Shown here in pieces: positions 3,052 through 18,791 of a stretch of 22,659 nt of DNA. Numbering within the stretch: the first letter of the stretch is position 1; each line of letters starts with the position of its first letter. The notes under the pieces are model-generated. The model ran no database searches, was not told the DNA's origin, and was given only the letters and a program-made list of their open reading frames with translations. The DNA comes from a virus, in the IMG/VR virus record IMGVR_UViG_3300042731_004201, positions 1 to 22,659 of that record; one strand, given 5' to 3'. A program made the translations under genes and the position numbers.

Positions 3052-3423
3052 TTAATATAAATGGATTTCATATCTTTGTTGGATTCTTTTAATGTTAGGT
3101 GTATCATCCGGTATTGTACCCTCAAATATTTTATAACATCTAAAAAAACCTTCCGATTCTGTTTGATATAATCCATTCAATGCATTCTTTACTAAATCAG
3201 ATGCATCTAAAATATTATTACTTGTGTTTTGATCCCAAAAATCAATCTCTAATATCCATCTTTCCTTATACAATGTATCATCTGTTTCACTAGGAAATCT
3301 ATAAATTATATAAGGGAATGTTGATGTATTTCCCGCTTCATCTGGATATACATTCATAGTACTATTTACAGCTTCTAATATATCTGCTTTTATATATTTT
3401 TTAAGCTTTCTTAATGGCATCAT
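3052..3423 (-). CDS. Tail terminator / tail-completion protein
   Basis: This 123-residue protein has the layout of the phage tail-terminator (DUF3168/gpU-like) group. A basic N-terminal helix (LRKLKKYIKADILEAV) is followed by TFPYIIYRFPSE, a strand pair with EIDFWDQNTSN, a helix (DASDLVKNALNGLYQ) and a C-terminal strand RIQQRYEIHLY. In known members, hexamers cap the tail tube and join it to the head. The gene lies between the gp10-like gene and the tail-tube genes, the standard place. Two ATG codons stand in tandem; an AAGGGA site lies 11-14 bases upstream. There is nothing unusual in the sequence. Confidence 0.65.
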   Translation of the reverse strand: MMPLRKLKKYIKADILEAVNSTMNVYPDEAGNTSTFPYIIYRFPSETDDTLYKERWILEIDFWDQNTSNNILDASDLVKNALNGLYQTESEGFFRCYKIFEGTIPDDTPNIKRIQQRYEIHLY

Positions 3424-3447
3424 ATTTTTTTTACATTCCCTTCTTAT

Positions 3448-3765
3448 TTATAAATTCTTACCTAATTGTTTTTTTGCTATCTGCATATATCTTGGTATGT
3501 AATTATATACACTAGGTCTTACAAATGGATGTGCCGGCATTTTATATGTACCATATTCTTGAAACCCCGCATATTCACCATTATTTATAAAATGTACCTC
3601 GTTTTCACCAGACACTTTAAATTCGTTTTTACTTTTTAAATACCCTGTGTCTACGGCAACATGATGATCCATTTTTGATTTTCCAAACTTTCCTGAAGCT
3701 TCTAAAAAATCTTTTTTATTTTTTCTAAATTGTTGTTTAAAACTATTCAAATTATTTTCTATCAT
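3448..3765 (-). CDS. HK97 gp10-like head-tail joining protein
   Basis: At 105 residues this matches the HK97-gp10-like family. It has a helical N-terminus, then a VDTGYLKSKNEFKV segment, VHFINNGEYAGFQEYGTYKM and PAHPFVRPSVYN. The order 'DTG-L-S ... YA-FQEYGT ... P-A-HPF-RP' is characteristic. Members act at the head-tail interface, adding a subunit around the connector or assisting tail completion. The ribosome binding site AGAGG lies about seven bases before the ATG. Its neighbours (capsid-associated genes upstream, tail terminator downstream) agree with this role. Confidence 0.75.
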   Translation of the reverse strand: MIENNLNSFKQQFRKNKKDFLEASGKFGKSKMDHHVAVDTGYLKSKNEFKVSGENEVHFINNGEYAGFQEYGTYKMPAHPFVRPSVYNYIPRYMQIAKKQLGKNL

Positions 3766-3777
3766 AATACATACCTC

Positions 3778-4149
3778 TTAATATTCAGGATTAGTAAAAA
3801 CCTCTATACCATAAGTTTTACCACCTGCATTAGCCCATACTATATCTATAGTATCTGTTGGCTTTAATGGTACATTTCGAGTTGGAGCGTATCTATGATA
3901 TTGTACTGAACTCATATCCTGTGATTCTAATACGTGATCGTATACCGCATTGGTACCATTGTTAATGGTAATTGTCAAATCACCAGAAGCACCTACAGCA
4001 TTTAATGATACTCTTACTTCTTTTAATGCCCATCTTTTACCTGTTTCAGGAGCAGAAACATTAATACTTACTGCTCCTGATCCTGTTTCTCTTGTAATAT
4101 GATTGTCAATTTTATGTTCTTCTAATTCTGTTAATCTAGGTAAACTCAC
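3778..4149 (-). CDS. Hypothetical structural protein
   Basis: This 123-residue protein has no motif I recognise. It looks like a small all-beta protein, with alternating strands such as AVSINVSAPETGKRWALKEV and GDLTITINNGTNAVYDHVL, and then PLKPTDTIDIVWANAG. Such a composition fits a capsid decoration or virion accessory protein. It lies between the head-fibre-like gene and the gp10-like gene, where connector components are often found, but it does not look helical as those do. The start is GTG at 4149, with a GAGGTGAT ribosome binding site; the overlapping ATG one base earlier is followed at once by a stop in its own frame. Confidence 0.55.
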   Translation of the reverse strand: MSLPRLTELEEHKIDNHITRETGSGAVSINVSAPETGKRWALKEVRVSLNAVGASGDLTITINNGTNAVYDHVLESQDMSSVQYHRYAPTRNVPLKPTDTIDIVWANAGGKTYGIEVFTNPEY

Positions 4150-4162
4150 ATTATCACCTCAA

Positions 4163-5155
4163 TTAATAACCGACTGTAATTGAGGCTCTTGCCCAATTAG
4201 CACCGGAAATTGTATTATTTGCAGTACATAAATACATATAAGAACTATCAAATTTGACATCACCTTTATTACCTACTGTTCCATCAACTCCGGCAGTTGT
4301 ATCACCTAAAGTTGTAATTTCACTCCCGAATGTACCATTTGCCATAGTTTCACTTACTGCGATTGAATTTCCAGCAACACCTTTAGTAGCCGCTGTTACG
4401 GTTACGGATGTTCCGGTACCTTGTGACATGGTATAAGTTGTTCCCTCATCTGCCCCAATTAATGCACCATCAGCATTAGCGGCGGTACAATCTGCACCTG
4501 CTTGTGTAGTTCCTAATGTACCAGAACCGTCAACTGATCCATTTGTAATATCTTCTGTAAATACAATTGAATCACCTGCTGTACCGGCAACTAATGCAGT
4601 AATAACACAAGCGTCGCCAACAAAATCAGCCGCACTTACACTAGGATGAGCCATATTAATTAAATCGGTTCCGTTGATAGCCGCAACTATGTTTAATTTT
4701 GTGGTTGCTTCATCAACACCAATTGCTATTTCTCCGGCTTCATCTGCTATTGCTTTAAATGTGTAAGTAGTGTCACCTATTACAAAGGATTCGTCGGCAC
4801 TGACTTGATCTGTAATAGTTAATGTGCCTTGAGAAGCTGTTGCATGACTTGTAATATCAACCGCTATATTTTCTGGTGATGTTTTAGATTGTGCCGCATC
4901 TGCAAGAAATTCATAAACATCACCATCAATAGTAACTGTTTCACCATCTATTACAACACCTGATAATGTTAAAGTACCTACAGCCGCTACAGCGTTTACT
5001 GGTGTACCTGCAATACCGGCTGATTCACTAATTGATTTTGAATTAACACCATCATGGTCATGACCTACAGTATTATCAAATATTTGCAATAATACTTCTC
5101 TAATCTGAGGATTTTTTACACTTTGTTCTATATTAGCTTTTAAACTTGTACTCAT
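4163..5155 (-). CDS. Head-fibre-like virion surface protein
   Basis: This 330-residue protein has a short helical N-terminus (1-30), the segment GHDHDGVNSKSI (31-42), a long Ala/Thr/Gly/Asp-rich beta region and a C-terminus GNKGDVKFDSSYMYLCTANN (296-315) leading to NWARASI. The 'HDHDGVNSK' start and the 'KGD..-D--YMYLCTANNT' end are familiar from phage head- or tail-fibre proteins. The middle holds a repeated beta module: GTLTLSG...VYEFLA (60-85) recurs as GTLTITD...YTFKAIADEA (110-140), and TALVAGTAGDSIVFTE (186-201) recurs as TAATKGVAGNSIAVSE (255-269). The order suggests that one unit is nested inside another. Base composition is less AT-rich than in its neighbours. Position just after the capsid gene favours a head fibre. 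Confidence 0.6.
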   Translation of the reverse strand: MSTSLKANIEQSVKNPQIREVLLQIFDNTVGHDHDGVNSKSISESAGIAGTPVNAVAAVGTLTLSGVVIDGETVTIDGDVYEFLADAAQSKTSPENIAVDITSHATASQGTLTITDQVSADESFVIGDTTYTFKAIADEAGEIAIGVDEATTKLNIVAAINGTDLINMAHPSVSAADFVGDACVITALVAGTAGDSIVFTEDITNGSVDGSGTLGTTQAGADCTAANADGALIGADEGTTYTMSQGTGTSVTVTAATKGVAGNSIAVSETMANGTFGSEITTLGDTTAGVDGTVGNKGDVKFDSSYMYLCTANNTISGANWARASITVGY

Positions 5156-5207
5156 TTATTTACCCTCCTGTAGTATTAAATAATTAATACATTTGTTCCA
5201 AGATTTA

Positions 5208-6170
5208 TTATGAAGTAGATAGACCTGTAACCGATCCATGATATTCTTCTGGACCATAATCCAAACCTGCTTGTAACAAAATTTGTTTCTTGCTACTTGC
5301 TCCTGTTCTAGCTAATGATTCTACTGTAACTAATCCACCCGGTAATGGTTGAATAACCAATTTAAGTACTGACATTTCAGTAAAATATAGTTCATCAGTT
5401 GGCATATTATAATCATTAATTAATGAAAAATCACCATATGGTGTACTAATCATCTTCATGGAATACCCACCTTGTGAATTACTTTGAATAGGATATCCAT
5501 ATAAAGCATTGATTCTTTCTAATTGATATCCTGAACATAAACAAGCAATATCCATCATTGGTGAACCTGCTAATTGCATAGTCCTAAGGATTTCATTAAT
5601 CATTGCCATTGATAAATTAGCGGAACCACCTGCTACATTATTTGTTGAAATCGCATTGGCTAGTCCTCTAGTTTGACCGGCTGTGGAAGACCCTGCGGCT
5701 ACATAACTACCGTTAATACAACTGTAATTTAAATCTACAGCGATTTGTTGCATATTAGATGCAACTTGGAAATCCATTTCACTAATAGGCTGAATCTGTT
5801 CATTAACATTTAAACCGGCTCTTTGACCGTAATTGGATTCCTTCATATCTGTAACCTCTGCAACTTGTTGATGAACTTGAATTGCATTGGTATCCTGACC
5901 TCTTGTATAAGTAGTTGGTGTAGGTGTTCTACTGTCATCTTCTGCAACTACTCTTGATTGTGCCGGAATAGTTACACTTGATGTTTGAGCCACCGTAAAT
6001 AAATTTGAATTGACAATTCTTACTTTACCTGCATTAATGGCTATTTGTAAATTCCATTTACTTGTATCATCAGGTATACTCAAAAGTCTTCCCAAAAACG
6101 GAGCGTTTATTTTACCTAATTTAAATAAACTACCAGCATAATTATTGGTATCTAATCCTGTATAAGCCAT
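5208..6170 (-). CDS. Major capsid protein (HK97-like fold, DUF5309/SU10-type)
   Basis: This 320-residue protein starts MAYTGLDTNNYAG, followed by LFKLGKINAPFLGRLLSI. The 'F-LGK-NAPFL' opening is typical of the DUF5309 / SU10-type major capsid family. Further family-like traits are a Gln/Asn-rich middle with IQVHQQVAEVTDMKESNYGQ, then LRTMQLAGSPMMDIACLCSG, and a closing VESLARTGASSKKQILLQAG. Capsid subunits of this kind assemble around a scaffold into icosahedral shells. The gene directly follows the scaffold gene and has an AGAGGTG ribosome binding site. No separate protease gene is seen and the N-terminus lacks a long delta domain, so cleavage is not evident. Confidence 0.75.
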   Translation of the reverse strand: MAYTGLDTNNYAGSLFKLGKINAPFLGRLLSIPDDTSKWNLQIAINAGKVRIVNSNLFTVAQTSSVTIPAQSRVVAEDDSRTPTPTTYTRGQDTNAIQVHQQVAEVTDMKESNYGQRAGLNVNEQIQPISEMDFQVASNMQQIAVDLNYSCINGSYVAAGSSTAGQTRGLANAISTNNVAGGSANLSMAMINEILRTMQLAGSPMMDIACLCSGYQLERINALYGYPIQSNSQGGYSMKMISTPYGDFSLINDYNMPTDELYFTEMSVLKLVIQPLPGGLVTVESLARTGASSKKQILLQAGLDYGPEEYHGSVTGLSTS

Positions 6171-6186
6171 TTATTTCACCTCTTCA

Positions 6187-6879
6187 TTATTTTTGTTGTT
6201 GTTTCTTGGCTTCATCATATTGCATTTGTAATGATAAAGCTCCCATTTCATCACCTTTTTTCTGAGCTTCTAGTATTTGTTGTTCAAATACATTAATATC
6301 AAGGTTTTTATTACCTTTTGTCGGTGATTGTCCTACTATATCGTTATTACCAAACATATCTTTATAATCTGTCTTCAATGGTAATAGAATCTTATCTTGA
6401 TTTAAAATCTCATCATCTTTTATAACCAATTCATCCAAATTGATTTGGCTTAAAAGAAGTTTAGAATTTTTATCACTAACTCCATTACTTTTTAACATGT
6501 CTTTAGCCAGATTCAAATTAAATTTATATTGGTATTCCTTTTCTTTTTTCTCAATATCTGCATTAAATAATGACTGTTGGTCATCTTTTTCTTTGTTATG
6601 CTTTTCGATCAATTTTTGTATTTCTTCCTTATGTTCTTTGGAAGTAACCATATTTTCATAATCTTTTTGATGTTTTTTATTAAGCTCTTCCATATCTTCC
6701 AAACGTTTTTTATAATCTTTTGCCTCTTCATTTTTCTTATTATATTGTTCTTTAGGCATATGTTTTTTACTATCATAGAGATATTTTCCTTTTAATTTAT
6801 CTTTAAATTTTGAGTAAAATGTACTCTTTTCAAGTTCTTTAAACACGTCTTCGCCTATTATTTCTTTTAACCAATCCAT
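6187..6879 (-). CDS. Capsid scaffolding protein (GP20-like)
   Basis: At 230 residues, this is very rich in Lys, Glu, Asp and Gln. A long coiled-coil region (about 40-120) starts at KKHMPKEQYNKKNEEAKDYK, which resembles the opening of the phage GP20 minor structural / scaffold family. After it comes a short domain LAKDMLKSNGVSDKNSKLLL (about 125-144), where family members typically have 'L--NGV-D-K-L', and a low-complexity Gln/Lys tail. It lies between the portal and capsid genes, the usual place. It would direct capsid assembly and then leave the head. The ribosome binding site GGAGG is eight bases from the ATG. Confidence 0.75.
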   Translation of the reverse strand: MDWLKEIIGEDVFKELEKSTFYSKFKDKLKGKYLYDSKKHMPKEQYNKKNEEAKDYKKRLEDMEELNKKHQKDYENMVTSKEHKEEIQKLIEKHNKEKDDQQSLFNADIEKKEKEYQYKFNLNLAKDMLKSNGVSDKNSKLLLSQINLDELVIKDDEILNQDKILLPLKTDYKDMFGNNDIVGQSPTKGNKNLDINVFEQQILEAQKKGDEMGALSLQMQYDEAKKQQQK

Positions 6880-6922
6880 TTTAATATCCTCCGTTTTATA
6901 GACCTTAGTCTTTTAATATTTT

Positions 6923-6951
6923 TTTATAGTGCTTTATTGCACTAATTTAAA
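6923..6951 (-). promoter_or_regulatory. Candidate internal promoter before scaffold-capsid genes
   Basis: On the minus strand, TTTAAA (6951-6946) and TATAAA (6928-6923) are separated by exactly 17 bases. An AGTGC/GCACT hairpin lies largely in the spacer. The 89-bp gap between portal and scaffold genes is the largest inside the late block, so an extra promoter for the high-copy capsid genes is plausible. In an AT-rich genome such matches also arise by chance. Confidence 0.35.
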
Positions 6952-6968
6952 CTTCTTAGCTAAAAAGT

Positions 6969-8294
6969 TTATAACTTATCTTGATTTTCTGTTTGCTCTT
7001 CTTCTTCTGAACCACTGTTTTCATCTTTATTTGTTTCTTCTTTAAGTTTATCATATTCATCATCCGTTGAATATGGATTTAACATGGTTCTTGTTTCTTG
7101 AGAAAGCATTCCAACACTTTTAACTAAATTATCTATTAATTCAGATTCATTAATTAGTAATCTTTTATTAAATATAATTTTAACTTTATTTAAATCATAT
7201 TCTTTCCCAAGGTTTTTTATTTTTCTATATATATTTTCAAATAACATTATTTCTTTAATAAATCGTTTAAGTTGTTTAATAAATTTATTTGCTTTTTGAT
7301 CCAAACTTTCAAATTTACTTTTGATTACTATATTAGTTAAATTTGAACCGGTTAATGTGTCAGTATCAACCGCCTGACTAAATAGATAGATATTTTTCCT
7401 TATTGTTTCCAAAAATTCTTTTCTGGCCGCATAAGGTACTTCTTTTGTTAAAAATTCAATATCACCATCTTCATCAACATTAGCAATACCATATTTTTTA
7501 ATTAATTCTAATACATTACTAATCGATGCCTCATCACTCAAATCACCTTTATAATTTTTAAGTTTTATTATAATATCCTGAAAATCTTCAAAATTATTTG
7601 CAAAATCACTTAAACAAATATCATAAATATCTATTAAATCTTTTATGATCCCCAAATCATTTAAATTCTTTTTATTATTATTTAAACAGATAAATGGAAT
7701 TCTGCCAAAACCTATACCCTTATTATCTTTAGATTTATCATTTACTTTTAATATATAAGGTGTCGAGTTTAATAAAATTAAATCAGTACCATCTAACATA
7801 TAAGTTGATTTTACATCCTTATCATAAGTTTCTACATATTTTTTATTTTTCTCATAAAACCTTATAATAAATGATAATTCCTCCATGTCATCATAAAACG
7901 CAATTATTTCCTCAGTTGGTATTATTTTATAACTTAATTCTGAAAATTCATTAATATAAATATATACCCAAGCTTTCTTTTTAATGCTTGCTTCTTCTGC
8001 AACCTCATCTATAAACTCGTTTATATCCAATATTGGCATGTAATCTTCAAATGTAATATCTTTACCAACACAATAACTTACTTTTTGGTCTACTATCATT
8101 TTAAAGAAATTATTAGCTATTTTATTATTTGCTCTATAAGGATCATTTTTTAATGAGTTGTTATAATAATAACTAAAGCTTCTATCTTTTATTTTTGACT
8201 TACTTACATAATATTTTTCAGCCTGCATAATATCTTTGTAATCTTGTGAAGCTTTATACTCATCAATGGCTTGTATTATTTGGTCATTTGTCAA
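6969..8294 (-). CDS. Portal protein (SPP1 gp6-like)
   Basis: This is a portal of the SPP1 gp6-like family, the dodecameric DNA channel at the unique capsid vertex. The N-terminus has YYNNSLKNDPYRANNKIANN and then FFKMIVDQKVSYCVGKDI, the typical 'N-I--N-FK-IVD-K--Y--GK-I' signature. The middle has RIPFICLNNNKKNLND and then LIDIYDICLSDFANN, matching 'IPf--l-Nn----sdl----LIDaYd---S---N'. The C-terminus is acidic and low in complexity. The longest frame begins with GTG at 8303, but that codon abuts the ribosome binding site (AGGAGG). The TTG at 8294 is eight bases downstream of it and is the better start, giving 441 residues. No minor head (gp7/MuF-like) gene follows, unlike in SPP1. Confidence 0.85.
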   Translation of the reverse strand: MTNDQIIQAIDEYKASQDYKDIMQAEKYYVSKSKIKDRSFSYYYNNSLKNDPYRANNKIANNFFKMIVDQKVSYCVGKDITFEDYMPILDINEFIDEVAEEASIKKKAWVYIYINEFSELSYKIIPTEEIIAFYDDMEELSFIIRFYEKNKKYVETYDKDVKSTYMLDGTDLILLNSTPYILKVNDKSKDNKGIGFGRIPFICLNNNKKNLNDLGIIKDLIDIYDICLSDFANNFEDFQDIIIKLKNYKGDLSDEASISNVLELIKKYGIANVDEDGDIEFLTKEVPYAARKEFLETIRKNIYLFSQAVDTDTLTGSNLTNIVIKSKFESLDQKANKFIKQLKRFIKEIMLFENIYRKIKNLGKEYDLNKVKIIFNKRLLINESELIDNLVKSVGMLSQETRTMLNPYSTDDEYDKLKEETNKDENSGSEEEEQTENQDKL

Positions 8295-14257: not shown

Positions 14258-16120
14258 ATGAAATATAAAAAGGTTATATTTGATGATATAGATACCTTAC
14301 TGGATTTAGAAAAGTTTAATAAAATGCCGGATGATGAATATGATGCATTTATAGAAAATCCAAATAATATCAATACAATATTTGATGAAGAAATACAGAA
14401 TCTAAAGGATAAGCAGATAAATGTAATTAAAATTGATAAAGATATTAAAAATCTTACATTATCTTGCATAGTTGAAGATAATGACAGTGAAATTATACAT
14501 TTATATATCAGACCTCAAATTATAACATGTGATGAAAATGGAAAACCATTATCACAAACGAAAAACTCCATAGACACTGATGTTAATAACGTATTATCAC
14601 AATATTTAAAGAGCCAAGGTATTATAATACAAAAACTTGATTCAGACGGTGTAATATTTGACTGTCCATTATGTAAGGATAATGATTTTAAATGTAAGAT
14701 GTTTTACAATACCGGTATAATCAATGCTTTTAGAAATACTTGTTCTACCGAAGCAAAACATGTTGACCTTTTTAGAAGATTAACAAGAGAAGCAAAAGGA
14801 TATTTAAAAGAAATCAAAAAAGCTCATAAACAAGAAATAGTTAATGAAAAAATGCATAGGCTTGATAAGTTAAAAATCAAAGCGGATATGAATTTAGAAT
14901 TATATGAATATTCATGTGAGAAAGGTTATTATACAAAATTACCTAAAAGAAAACTTGAAAAATATATTTATGATTATTGTAGTCCAGAAGACAACAAAGA
15001 ATATAGAGATATCCTTGGAGAAGTAAGAAACGATTATAAACCTGAACCATTCGCAGAAGGTTATTTAATGAATATGGAAAATGGTATTTATAATATTAAA
15101 GAAGATAAGTTATTAGAAAAAGATTCAGATATGTTTTTCACATATGTTATACCTGCGAAATATGATCCAAGTGCAAACTCAGAATTATTATATAACACTG
15201 TAAGGCAAATATTTGATAGTGATGAAATAGTGACTGAATTTAAAAAAGCATTAGGATATTCCATTCATGATACATGCATGTTTGAAAAAGGATTTATATT
15301 AAGAGGCACGAAAAATGGAGCCAATGGTAAAGATACGATATTAGGTTTATTGGTAGGATGTAAGGAAAACAATTACAGAGGTCTTTTTAGTCATTTGGCT
15401 GTTAAAGCTTCCATCACAGATTTAAACGACACATTTTCTCATTCAATGATTGAAAATAAAAAAGTATGGTTTGATACTGATTATAACGAAGCATTTTTAA
15501 AACACACTGCTATAATTCGTAAAATGATATCAGGATCAGTCTTAAAAGTGAGAGAACCATTTAAGGAATTTAGATATATAGAGGCAAACTGTAAGCCATG
15601 GATAGCATGTAATACACTACCAAAACTTGAAAACAATGACGGTGGTTGGTGGCGTAGATGGCAGATATTTGATTGTCAATTAACATTTGGTGGTAAAAAT
15701 GGAGCTAAAAAAGACCCAACCTTAAAATTTAAATTAAATACTGATGTAGTATATAGCACATTATTTAATTGGGTTATTGAAGGATACAAAGCAGTCGAAA
15801 ATTATAATATTACAGATGGTGAGTTTTTTATGGAAAATGATGCGGCTATTGATACTTGGAAAAAACAAGCTAATAATATTGTGTTATTCATTGATGAAGA
15901 ATGTAATATTAATCCTGATGTTAAAATAAAAAGATCATTGTTGTATAAGTATTATAAACAACATTGTCTGAATTCAGGAACCAAACCATTAGGGAAACAA
16001 AATTTTTATGAGAAAATAATTTATGAATCAGCCATATATCATAAAAAATCAAATGGTGTTGATTGGCTTTATGGTATTGAAATGAAAGGGGAATTTGAAT
16101 ATGAAGATAATGGGCTTTGA
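14258..16120 (+). CDS. D5-type SF3 replicative helicase without a primase domain
   Basis: This 620-residue protein has a C-terminal superfamily 3 helicase. Its parts are a D5_N-like region (about 265-345, with MNMENGIYNIKEDKLLEKDS and VIPAKYDPSA), Walker A GTKNGANGKDT (350-360), a Walker B-like strand KKVWFDTDYN (401-410), sensor 1/motif C CKPWIACNTLP with N452, and the Arg-rich WWRRW (464-468). Around 136-162 are four cysteines (CPLC, C146, C162) that may form a zinc ribbon. Many phage proteins of this type begin with an archaeo-eukaryotic primase domain; I find none here. It would unwind DNA at the fork as a hexamer. Its end overlaps the polymerase gene by about 20 bases. Confidence 0.85.
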   Translation: MKYKKVIFDDIDTLLDLEKFNKMPDDEYDAFIENPNNINTIFDEEIQNLKDKQINVIKIDKDIKNLTLSCIVEDNDSEIIHLYIRPQIITCDENGKPLSQTKNSIDTDVNNVLSQYLKSQGIIIQKLDSDGVIFDCPLCKDNDFKCKMFYNTGIINAFRNTCSTEAKHVDLFRRLTREAKGYLKEIKKAHKQEIVNEKMHRLDKLKIKADMNLELYEYSCEKGYYTKLPKRKLEKYIYDYCSPEDNKEYRDILGEVRNDYKPEPFAEGYLMNMENGIYNIKEDKLLEKDSDMFFTYVIPAKYDPSANSELLYNTVRQIFDSDEIVTEFKKALGYSIHDTCMFEKGFILRGTKNGANGKDTILGLLVGCKENNYRGLFSHLAVKASITDLNDTFSHSMIENKKVWFDTDYNEAFLKHTAIIRKMISGSVLKVREPFKEFRYIEANCKPWIACNTLPKLENNDGGWWRRWQIFDCQLTFGGKNGAKKDPTLKFKLNTDVVYSTLFNWVIEGYKAVENYNITDGEFFMENDAAIDTWKKQANNIVLFIDEECNINPDVKIKRSLLYKYYKQHCLNSGTKPLGKQNFYEKIIYESAIYHKKSNGVDWLYGIEMKGEFEYEDNGL

Positions 16121-18791
16121 TATAAGATTTGCTATTGTTGACTTGGAATGCTTGGAAGACTATTTTAGTCTCCAAGTCTCCAATGAAAAAAGCGACAAAG
16201 TTAGTATAATAGAGTGTACAGAAAACAGCCACTTTTTTAAATTATATAACAACTTGAAAAAAAGTACTATACAAAAAATAAATAGACCTATGTATGTATA
16301 TTCAATTGATTATGATAAAACAATGTTAAACGCACTATGTAAAATTGTGGAACAAAAAAACAGAGGACAACTAAAAGGTATAAATATAAACAAAATGTTA
16401 AGAGATATTAATAATTATTTAATACCTGCTAAAGGACCTGTTAAACCAAAGAAATCTGATGAAGTACATTACTTTAGATTAAATCGAGAATTTTGGGCAT
16501 TTAAAGACAAATATGGAAAGAATAATCCAACAAGAGATTTTGCAGATTGTTATAATTATGCATTACAAAGAATAAAATCACAATACACCGGAAAATGTTT
16601 AGAATTCATAGAGAAATATCATTTTTTATTTGGACAATCTAAAGTATATAAAAAATTAACAATAAACGAAGTTCCTAGGATTTACGGTTATATAATAATT
16701 GATAAAGAAAAAAATGTAGCTCCGAGTATAGGACTAAAGAAACTACAATTAATAAAAGAAGATTATAATGTAAAGTTTAATTTTGACAAATATAAAACCA
16801 TAAAAGATATTAAAGATGATGGCTTATATGATTATTGGATTAAATATAGTAAAAATGATATAACCTTTTTAAAAAAATTATTCATGGAAAAACCATTAGA
16901 TGATATTAAAGAAAGAATTTATGCAATAAGAGCAGTACAAAAAATTAAACCGGATCTTAAGTATACAAATGATATGATTTTTACTGGAACACATACAAGG
17001 TTAGTTTCTGGTGTATTAAGTATAAACAATCCTAATAAAAAAATAGTAATAGATTATCCTGATTATATTAAAACTAATTTTAAAAAGTTCAATGATTTCG
17101 TAAGTTTTGTAAATACACATAATAATATCAAGGATGATAAAGAACTTAAAAAAATGTATTGTACTGAATATGAGGTTAATTATATAGAAGATGATGAAAT
17201 AATAATGACAGATGATAAGCTAGAGTCTAAAATAGGATCATTTAACACTTTAAACTATAATGGTATGGAAATTAAATTTGGTTTAGGTGGTATACATGGA
17301 GCTATACCAGATTATACAGGAGAGAATTTATTACATTCTGATTATACATCACAATATACCTCTATAATCTTACAATACAAAGAATTGTTTAAAAATATCA
17401 TAGATGTTGATTTATATGAGGCTATATATAATATGCGTATAAAGGATAAAGCAAACTTAAAAAACATGGTATACGGTTCAGATGAATATAATGAGTGTAA
17501 TTTAATAGTCACAGGTTTAAAGTTGATATTAAATTTTACATTCGGTTTAATAAATAGTAATTTTGATTTACCTGTAAGCTGTAAACCACTTGGTAGATTT
17601 ATATGTCTTAAAGGTCAAAGCTTGTTGTTGAACTTATTAGAAAAACTTATCAATCCTATAAATGTTAATACAGACGGTATCATATGGAAAAATGATGGTA
17701 GCCTAAATGTAGAAACAATTACCAAGGCAGATGGATATTTTAAGTTGGACAATAATAAAATTGAAATGTTATTACAGAATAATGTAAACAATTATATAAA
17801 AATGGTTAAAGTAAAAGCTTTTGATGGAACAATGAAAAATAAAATGAAAACAAAAGGAAAATATAATATCTCCATAAAACAAAGGATTAATTCAGATGAA
17901 AAATTAAGTGTAAATTTAGAAAATGCTTTAAATCTTTTTCAAAACAAAGAGGTAACATGTGAACCTATTTATTTCGGGAAGAAAATAAATATAAAACATG
18001 GTACAGATACTCCATATTATTTAACCAATAAAAAACAAGGATACACAGCAATTAAAGCACTAAAAAAGCCATTAATATTAGGTATAGATGACGAATTATA
18101 TTATTTCACATCTGATAAAAATAAAGCTGATATTAATGTATATAAACACTTTGCCGAAATGTTTTTAAACAAAATTTATACATTTGAAATTTTCACAAAA
18201 ACTAAAAAAATAATACCTTATATAGAATATCCTATTATAGAAGATTCAGAAGAAAATAATAAGATAAAAAATAAAAACAAACTTAAATTATATAGGATGT
18301 TTGGTAGTAATCATATATTTTTTGGTGGATTTAGAGGAGATTTAAAAGCAACAAGTTTTATAAATAATAATCCTATACAGAATTTAATTCATTATAAAAA
18401 GACAGAAATTCAAAAATCTACATTTTGTAAAGGTTTTGGTGTAGCACCAGAAGATAAATATTTAATAATAGATGTAGATATTTATGATAAGAAAACAGGA
18501 AAATCTAAAGAAGGTTATGAAATATGCAATGATATTATAGAAGCCTTAGAGCAATCTAATACATTTACTTGCTGGAACAATGCAACTAGTAAATATGGTA
18601 ATAAAAAATATATATTTACTAATCCTAGTAATAAAAGATTTAAAATAAATTCTGAGTATGCTAAATATATAGAATTATTAACTCATAAGGCAATGGTATG
18701 GTCGTTACCTAATTGTACACCTACTTATTTTAATAATGAAACTGAACCTAATAATATGTCAAGTTATTTATTTAATAAATTAATAAAATAA
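16101..18791 (+). CDS. Family-B-like DNA polymerase with C-terminal PrimPol-like domain
   Basis: From the ATG at 16101 the protein has 896 residues. The longer TTG start at 16095 is poorer; AAAGGGG is nine bases before 16101. Exonuclease motifs are D14-L-E16 (IVDLECL), a probable exo II near 68-75 and exo III Y249-SKND253. Polymerase motif A is HSDYTSQYTSI (412-422), motif B K474-LILNFTFG and motif C NVNTDGI (521-527), in the family B order. From about 731, GFGVAPEDKYLIIDVDIYD and the E858 strand (YIELLTHKAMVWSLPN) resemble an archaeo-eukaryotic primase-polymerase. The usual catalytic His after GG appears to be Lys (YGNKKYIF, 832-839). The fusion is unusual, and priming activity is uncertain. 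Confidence 0.8.
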   Translation: MKIMGFDIRFAIVDLECLEDYFSLQVSNEKSDKVSIIECTENSHFFKLYNNLKKSTIQKINRPMYVYSIDYDKTMLNALCKIVEQKNRGQLKGININKMLRDINNYLIPAKGPVKPKKSDEVHYFRLNREFWAFKDKYGKNNPTRDFADCYNYALQRIKSQYTGKCLEFIEKYHFLFGQSKVYKKLTINEVPRIYGYIIIDKEKNVAPSIGLKKLQLIKEDYNVKFNFDKYKTIKDIKDDGLYDYWIKYSKNDITFLKKLFMEKPLDDIKERIYAIRAVQKIKPDLKYTNDMIFTGTHTRLVSGVLSINNPNKKIVIDYPDYIKTNFKKFNDFVSFVNTHNNIKDDKELKKMYCTEYEVNYIEDDEIIMTDDKLESKIGSFNTLNYNGMEIKFGLGGIHGAIPDYTGENLLHSDYTSQYTSIILQYKELFKNIIDVDLYEAIYNMRIKDKANLKNMVYGSDEYNECNLIVTGLKLILNFTFGLINSNFDLPVSCKPLGRFICLKGQSLLLNLLEKLINPINVNTDGIIWKNDGSLNVETITKADGYFKLDNNKIEMLLQNNVNNYIKMVKVKAFDGTMKNKMKTKGKYNISIKQRINSDEKLSVNLENALNLFQNKEVTCEPIYFGKKINIKHGTDTPYYLTNKKQGYTAIKALKKPLILGIDDELYYFTSDKNKADINVYKHFAEMFLNKIYTFEIFTKTKKIIPYIEYPIIEDSEENNKIKNKNKLKLYRMFGSNHIFFGGFRGDLKATSFINNNPIQNLIHYKKTEIQKSTFCKGFGVAPEDKYLIIDVDIYDKKTGKSKEGYEICNDIIEALEQSNTFTCWNNATSKYGNKKYIFTNPSNKRFKINSEYAKYIELLTHKAMVWSLPNCTPTYFNNETEPNNMSSYLFNKLIK

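Follow-up and report, generated by a model that had tools for sequence, protein, structure and literature searches.

The Polymerase Gene and Its Fused Relatives

The window, i.e. the whole stretch of DNA analysed here (22,659 nucleotides, IMG/VR record IMGVR_UViG_3300042731_004201), is part of a tailed-phage genome, with terminase, portal, and major head and tail proteins. An open reading frame on its plus strand, which starts with ATG at position 16101, encodes 896 amino acids (coding part 16101-18788) and closes with a stop codon ending at 18791, specifies a family B DNA polymerase (PolB) with a C-terminal extension, and its start is overlapped by 20 bases by the preceding helicase gene (Table 1). 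The exonuclease and polymerase motifs of family B had been recognized in a first-pass annotation of this DNA, and the assignment was corroborated with a home-made profile of 39 further phage PolBs, which detected the window protein with E 3e-29. Residues D14, E16, D72, Y249, and D253 of the exonuclease and D414, K474, N478, N523, and D525 of the polymerase are invariant in all members carrying the fusion, wherever the sequence is present. In the alignment, the ordinary phage PolBs of Wanderer, P40, HHU-22, and PMF329 end at about residue 697 of the window protein; residues 698-896 are therefore an addition of ≈ 199 residues, longer than the ≈ 165 first proposed.

Table 1. Features of the polymerase and helicase genes in the window.
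Feature	Position	Strand	Basis
D5/P4-type SF3 helicase, 620 aa, without AEP domain	14258..16120	+	TIGR01613, PF08706, PF19263
Predicted helicase zinc ribbon, C136, C139, C162, H168	14663..14761	+	conservation in intact members
Family B DNA polymerase core, residues ~1-697, exonuclease and polymerase motifs	16101..18191	+	PolB profile, invariant residues, alignment end
C-terminal AEP (PrimPol-like) domain, residues ~698-896	18192..18788	+	AlphaFold2 and Foldseek
AEP motif I, D791-V-D793 (hhhDhD; IIDVD), predicted strand 787-792	18471..18479	+	
AEP motif II position, K836 replacing the usual His, predicted strand 835-840	18606..18608	+	
AEP motif III acid, E858, predicted strand 857-860	18672..18674	+	

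An identical copy of the polymerase is present in a second contig, IMGVR_UViG_3300035138_000043, and shares two unusual features of the window protein, namely T420 (17358-17360) in polymerase motif A, where Pro is usual (SQYPS), and F479-T-F481 (17535-17543) in motif B, as against S/T-x-Y/F in relatives.

The same fusion, which the first-pass annotation had proposed to look for in other phages, was found by successive scans in 11 distinct IMG/VR viral contigs (the window, L099 (=L004), L100, L098, L101 (=L015), L102/L103, L104, L105, L106 (=L016), L107, and L108, with L102 and L103, identical in the polymerase, counted as one member). Over the polymerase core the members are 44-74% identical to the window protein, over the extension 28-62%, and dN/dS values of 0.21-0.29 for the extension in two pairs with intact active sites indicate purifying selection. 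The extension is neither a chance reading frame nor an annotation artefact. Within the searches run, isolated phages matched the polymerase part only and never the extension, no carrier of the fusion appeared among plasmids, and two contig scans of GTDB species genomes gave no relative with the fusion.

Fold of the C-Terminal Domain

AlphaFold2 modelling of residues 695-896, based on an alignment of the eleven fused homologues that included no known archaeo-eukaryotic primase (AEP), gave a mean pLDDT of 90.9 and a pTM of 0.85. In a Foldseek search of the PDB with this model, ranks 1-6 were all occupied by the NrS-1 primase-polymerase, with a best E of 4e-4 and probabilities of 0.96-1.00. The match after these had E 0.26, and a CRISPR-associated Prim-Pol was listed eleventh, weakly scored; among viral models, Prim-Pol proteins headed and dominated the list (best E 1e-5). 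With 0.39 for NrS-1 and 0.54 for the top viral model, the TM-scores are modest, in keeping with a distant relationship. The PrimPol resemblance suspected in the first-pass annotation thus held up, and the two outcomes named there as speaking against it, a family B thumb or an unrelated fold with no AEP match, were not what the predicted structure displayed.

Searches at the sequence level were far less telling. Pfam, PHROGs, NCBIfam, and the PDB sequences returned no usable AEP match for the extension; phrog_1156 (DNA primase) matched weakly, around motifs I and II only. As to PF09250, proposed earlier for comparison, the AEP fold was recovered by structure search and the Pfam profile was not, with no match over the curated cut-off in the window protein or in any genome with the fusion. 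Profile-profile comparison of the extension (11 sequences) with the AEPs of phage D5-type proteins by hhalign was suggestive only (best P 2e-4, probability 45%), and the probability never exceeded 45% with 2, 4, 7, or 11 sequences. These poor scores are what an unrelated α/β fold with a coincidental DhD motif would lead one to expect. Such a reading is nevertheless extremely improbable in view of the confidently predicted fold, the top six PDB matches to one PrimPol and the viral matches, nearly all of them Prim-Pol. Judged by its predicted structure, the extension belongs to the AEP superfamily, though unrecognized by any sequence-profile library tried. A PD-(D/E)xK nuclease, considered for the D...E...K arrangement, was dismissed, with a spacing that does not fit and a fold search that returns PrimPols. 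Only ≈ 38 residues follow motif III, so that the chain contains no helix-bundle or PriCT domain.

Active-Site Motifs and Their Decay

The residues D791/D793, E858, and the Lys of YGNKKYIF (K836) singled out in the first-pass annotation are all found at their places, and D791, K836, and E858 each fall on a predicted strand of their own, in the succession known for motifs I to III of AEPs. All four are kept in seven members (the intact set), down to ≈ 40% identity of the domain to that of the window. Motif I conforms to hhhDhD/E and motif III (E858) to hD/E in each of the seven, while at motif II the sxH pattern is replaced throughout by a lysine (7/7).

The remaining members have N, K, V, N (L098), K, E, T, K (L102/L103) or S, D, C, D/N (L105/L107, where D793 is retained) at D791, D793, K836, and E858, respectively. 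Of 34 extension positions invariant in the intact members, the three dead lineages have all lost the same eight, including D791, K836, and E858, whereas D793 is lost in two of the three. The exonuclease and polymerase residues of PolB stay invariant while this catalytic set decays. A single clade of dead members is rejected on the polymerase-core tree (AU p 0.006), which needs two to three changes; to judge from the sequences, the catalytic set has been lost in two or three independent lineages, in which the polymerase-borne AEP is predicted to be a retained, non-catalytic domain. In L105/L107 the dead domain is still under purifying selection (dN/dS 0.26), which points to some structural role there.

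Since K836 is kept together with the acids and lost together with them, it can be regarded as part of the active site and not as a sign of its death. An Arg or Lys at the motif II His position has been reported for the DR0530-like AEPs, and Gln, Tyr, Arg, and Lys variants have been described in other AEP families (PMC5862659), so that a lysine is evidently allowed within the superfamily. With this precedent and the behaviour of K836 in the eleven members, the earlier suggestion that the replacement of His by Lys leaves a domain merely binding template or nucleotides is not favoured. Extended to all members, it would make the domain a non-catalytic processivity module, in line not only with the lysine but also with the retention of the domain without catalytic residues in L098, L102/L103, L105, and L107 and the selection acting on it in L105/L107. 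However, a domain that only binds would not be expected to keep the acid triad, which is invariant with K836 in seven members as divergent as those described above, and in the dead lineages the catalytic set disappears together with a change of helicase (see below); a binding module throughout is therefore rated as highly unlikely.

Motif I is directly followed by a loop DKKTGxxKxG (window 18486-18515, residues 796-805). Its sequence is largely conserved among the intact members, whereas the dead members have a shortened loop or none; it may bind template or nucleotides, as a feature specific to this fused polymerase family.

The Neighbouring Helicase

The helicase gene preceding polB encodes an SF3/D5 part that scores over the cut-off of TIGR01613 (E 8e-34, 116.9 bits) and also matches PF08706 and PF19263. 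An N-terminal AEP domain was not detected in it: primase-helicase profiles match the helicase part only, phrog_1829 for instance from profile position 386 of 772 onwards. That the AEP domain is normally joined to the D5-type helicase, as had been remarked at the outset, holds for related phages with polB, and the neighbouring helicase here is without one. The same applies to all seven intact members, whose helicases (of the D5 type in five members and of the VapE type in L100 and L104) lack an AEP and carry a conserved zinc ribbon in their N-terminal module; its first two Cys and last His are conserved in 7/7, and the third Cys, likewise present in 7/7, is shifted by one position in five. This zinc-ribbon module is joined either to a VapE-type motor (L124:13616-15565 and L129:12180-13988, from the L100/L104 genomes) or to a D5-type motor, and it seems from these sequences that the motor was exchanged behind a conserved N-terminus in L100/L104 relative to the rest.

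In L098, L103, L105, and L107, on the other hand, the N-terminus of the helicase strongly matches primase families (phrog_256 with E 1e-51 and 1e-58, phrog_1829 with E 1e-17 and 1e-14 for the primase region), in agreement with genome-wide searches. L102, with the polymerase of L103 near one end of the contig, has no helicase found on that contig. Consequently, an intact polymerase-borne AEP goes with a primase-less helicase in 7/7 and a dead one with a primase-bearing helicase in 4/4 cases, a split with a chance of 1 in 330 under independence of the members, an assumption that does not hold; with 11 contigs and 2-3 independent changes, a sign test of the association cannot reach 0.05. Neither a Toprim (DnaG-type primase) nor a DnaB family match was obtained in any genome with the fusion, the contigs being possibly incomplete, and the DnaG-type zinc ribbon in L105/L107 lies inside their own AEP-D5 proteins.

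Relation to Known Systems

Within the open-access literature, fusions of PolB with PrimPol are already known, and the new aspects are the order of the domains, the separate zinc-ribbon helicase, the lysine, and the recurrent inactivation. In the HelPrimPolB group, an SF3 helicase and a PrimPol precede PolB in one chain (Kazlauskas et al. 2020, PMC7544198), and GP55 of lactococcal phage 1706 was reported to carry out de novo priming and extension, with an extra α-helical domain needed for priming (PMC12205980). Common to these and the window protein is a family B polymerase and an AEP/PrimPol in one phage-encoded chain. In the known fusions the primase precedes PolB and the helicase belongs to the same chain; here the AEP is C-terminal and the helicase is encoded by a separate, overlapping gene, and both HelPrimPolB and GP55 differ from the window system with its zinc-ribbon helicase, motif II Lys, and recurrent inactivation. 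ORF904, NrS-1, and GP55 all depend on an accessory helical domain for priming; the chain of the window polymerase has none.

The best structural match, the N-terminal domain of NrS-1 primase-polymerase (N300; PDB 7rr4, 6k9a, 6a9w), shares the AEP core at a sequence identity of 9-12% in the Foldseek alignments; NrS-1, however, is equipped with a helix bundle at its C-terminus and a helicase domain of its own, and PolB is absent. In Wanderer, P40, HHU-22, and PMF329 the same gene pair is found (polB and a D5-type helicase), an AEP-PriCT-D5 protein adjoining polB, and the AEP of the helicase presents its motifs in the same order as the window extension; in these phages, however, the helicase begins with the AEP, motif II has the His, and PolB stops at the end of the core. 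DR0530-like AEPs are not known as fusions with PolB. They resemble the window domain in the Arg/Lys reported to take the place of the motif II His (PMC5862659), a likeness drawn from their published description.

Probable Function of the Polymerase-Borne AEP Domain

AEP-type primases of phages usually reside on the helicase, and here the domain is attached to the polymerase. That the intact domain occurs only with a primase-less helicase and the dead one with a primase-bearing helicase suggests real primer synthesis, and the polymerase-borne AEP is probably the phage's own primase. It would synthesize a primer on single-stranded template, to be taken over by the PolB active site of the same chain. 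D791, D793, and E858 are the presumed ligands of the catalytic metals, K836 would hold the phosphates of the incoming nucleotide in place of the motif II His, and the zinc ribbon of the helicase may help the domain to start primers in trans. On the simplest account, the AEP may have moved from the helicase to the polymerase, or the polymerase may have gained an AEP while the helicase lost its own; where an AEP-bearing helicase is present, the active site on the polymerase would then decay and the domain be kept, in an order of events that is presumed.

Alternatively, the domain could have a working active site and act as an additional polymerase or nucleotidyl transferase in gap filling or lesion bypass, with the genome primed by the host DnaG. 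Many AEPs extend primers, the helix-bundle/PriCT module required, according to the literature, for priming by AEPs is absent from the chain, and with no other phage primase found, priming by the host is possible. Yet this alternative is unlikely, as the domain is intact exactly where the replicative helicase has no AEP and dead where it has one, the pattern expected if the AEP supplies the primase that the helicase is missing.

An elaboration of the primase reading, possible but more tentative, is a split primase, in which a Lys-type AEP on the polymerase and a zinc-ribbon accessory on the helicase would make primers only when they meet at the fork, and in which repeated swaps of the module between the two proteins would have taken place, the polymerase copy dying each time a helicase primase was acquired. 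The natural losses of the active site match the changes of the helicase and thereby offer a comparison of moves of the primase module within the replisome; the fused family can also serve to test whether an AEP still works with Lys instead of His in motif II.

Other Extended Family B Polymerases

C-terminal extensions were also noted on several other phage PolB frames of 795-901 codons (L039, L044, L054, L056, L069, L073, L075, L080, L082, and L088); no AEP motifs were seen in these extensions, which may be run-on into the following gene. In L025 (IMGVR_UViG_3300010413_000112), a frame of 1607 amino acids at 3101-7924 has PolB at its N-terminus, followed by an AEP-like stretch (NVGYFDLDEG ... 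KRKQRHFFLL), a weak match to PriX (E 0.14), and the P-loop sequence GAGKTT, and is possibly a PolB-AEP-helicase triple fusion in another order.
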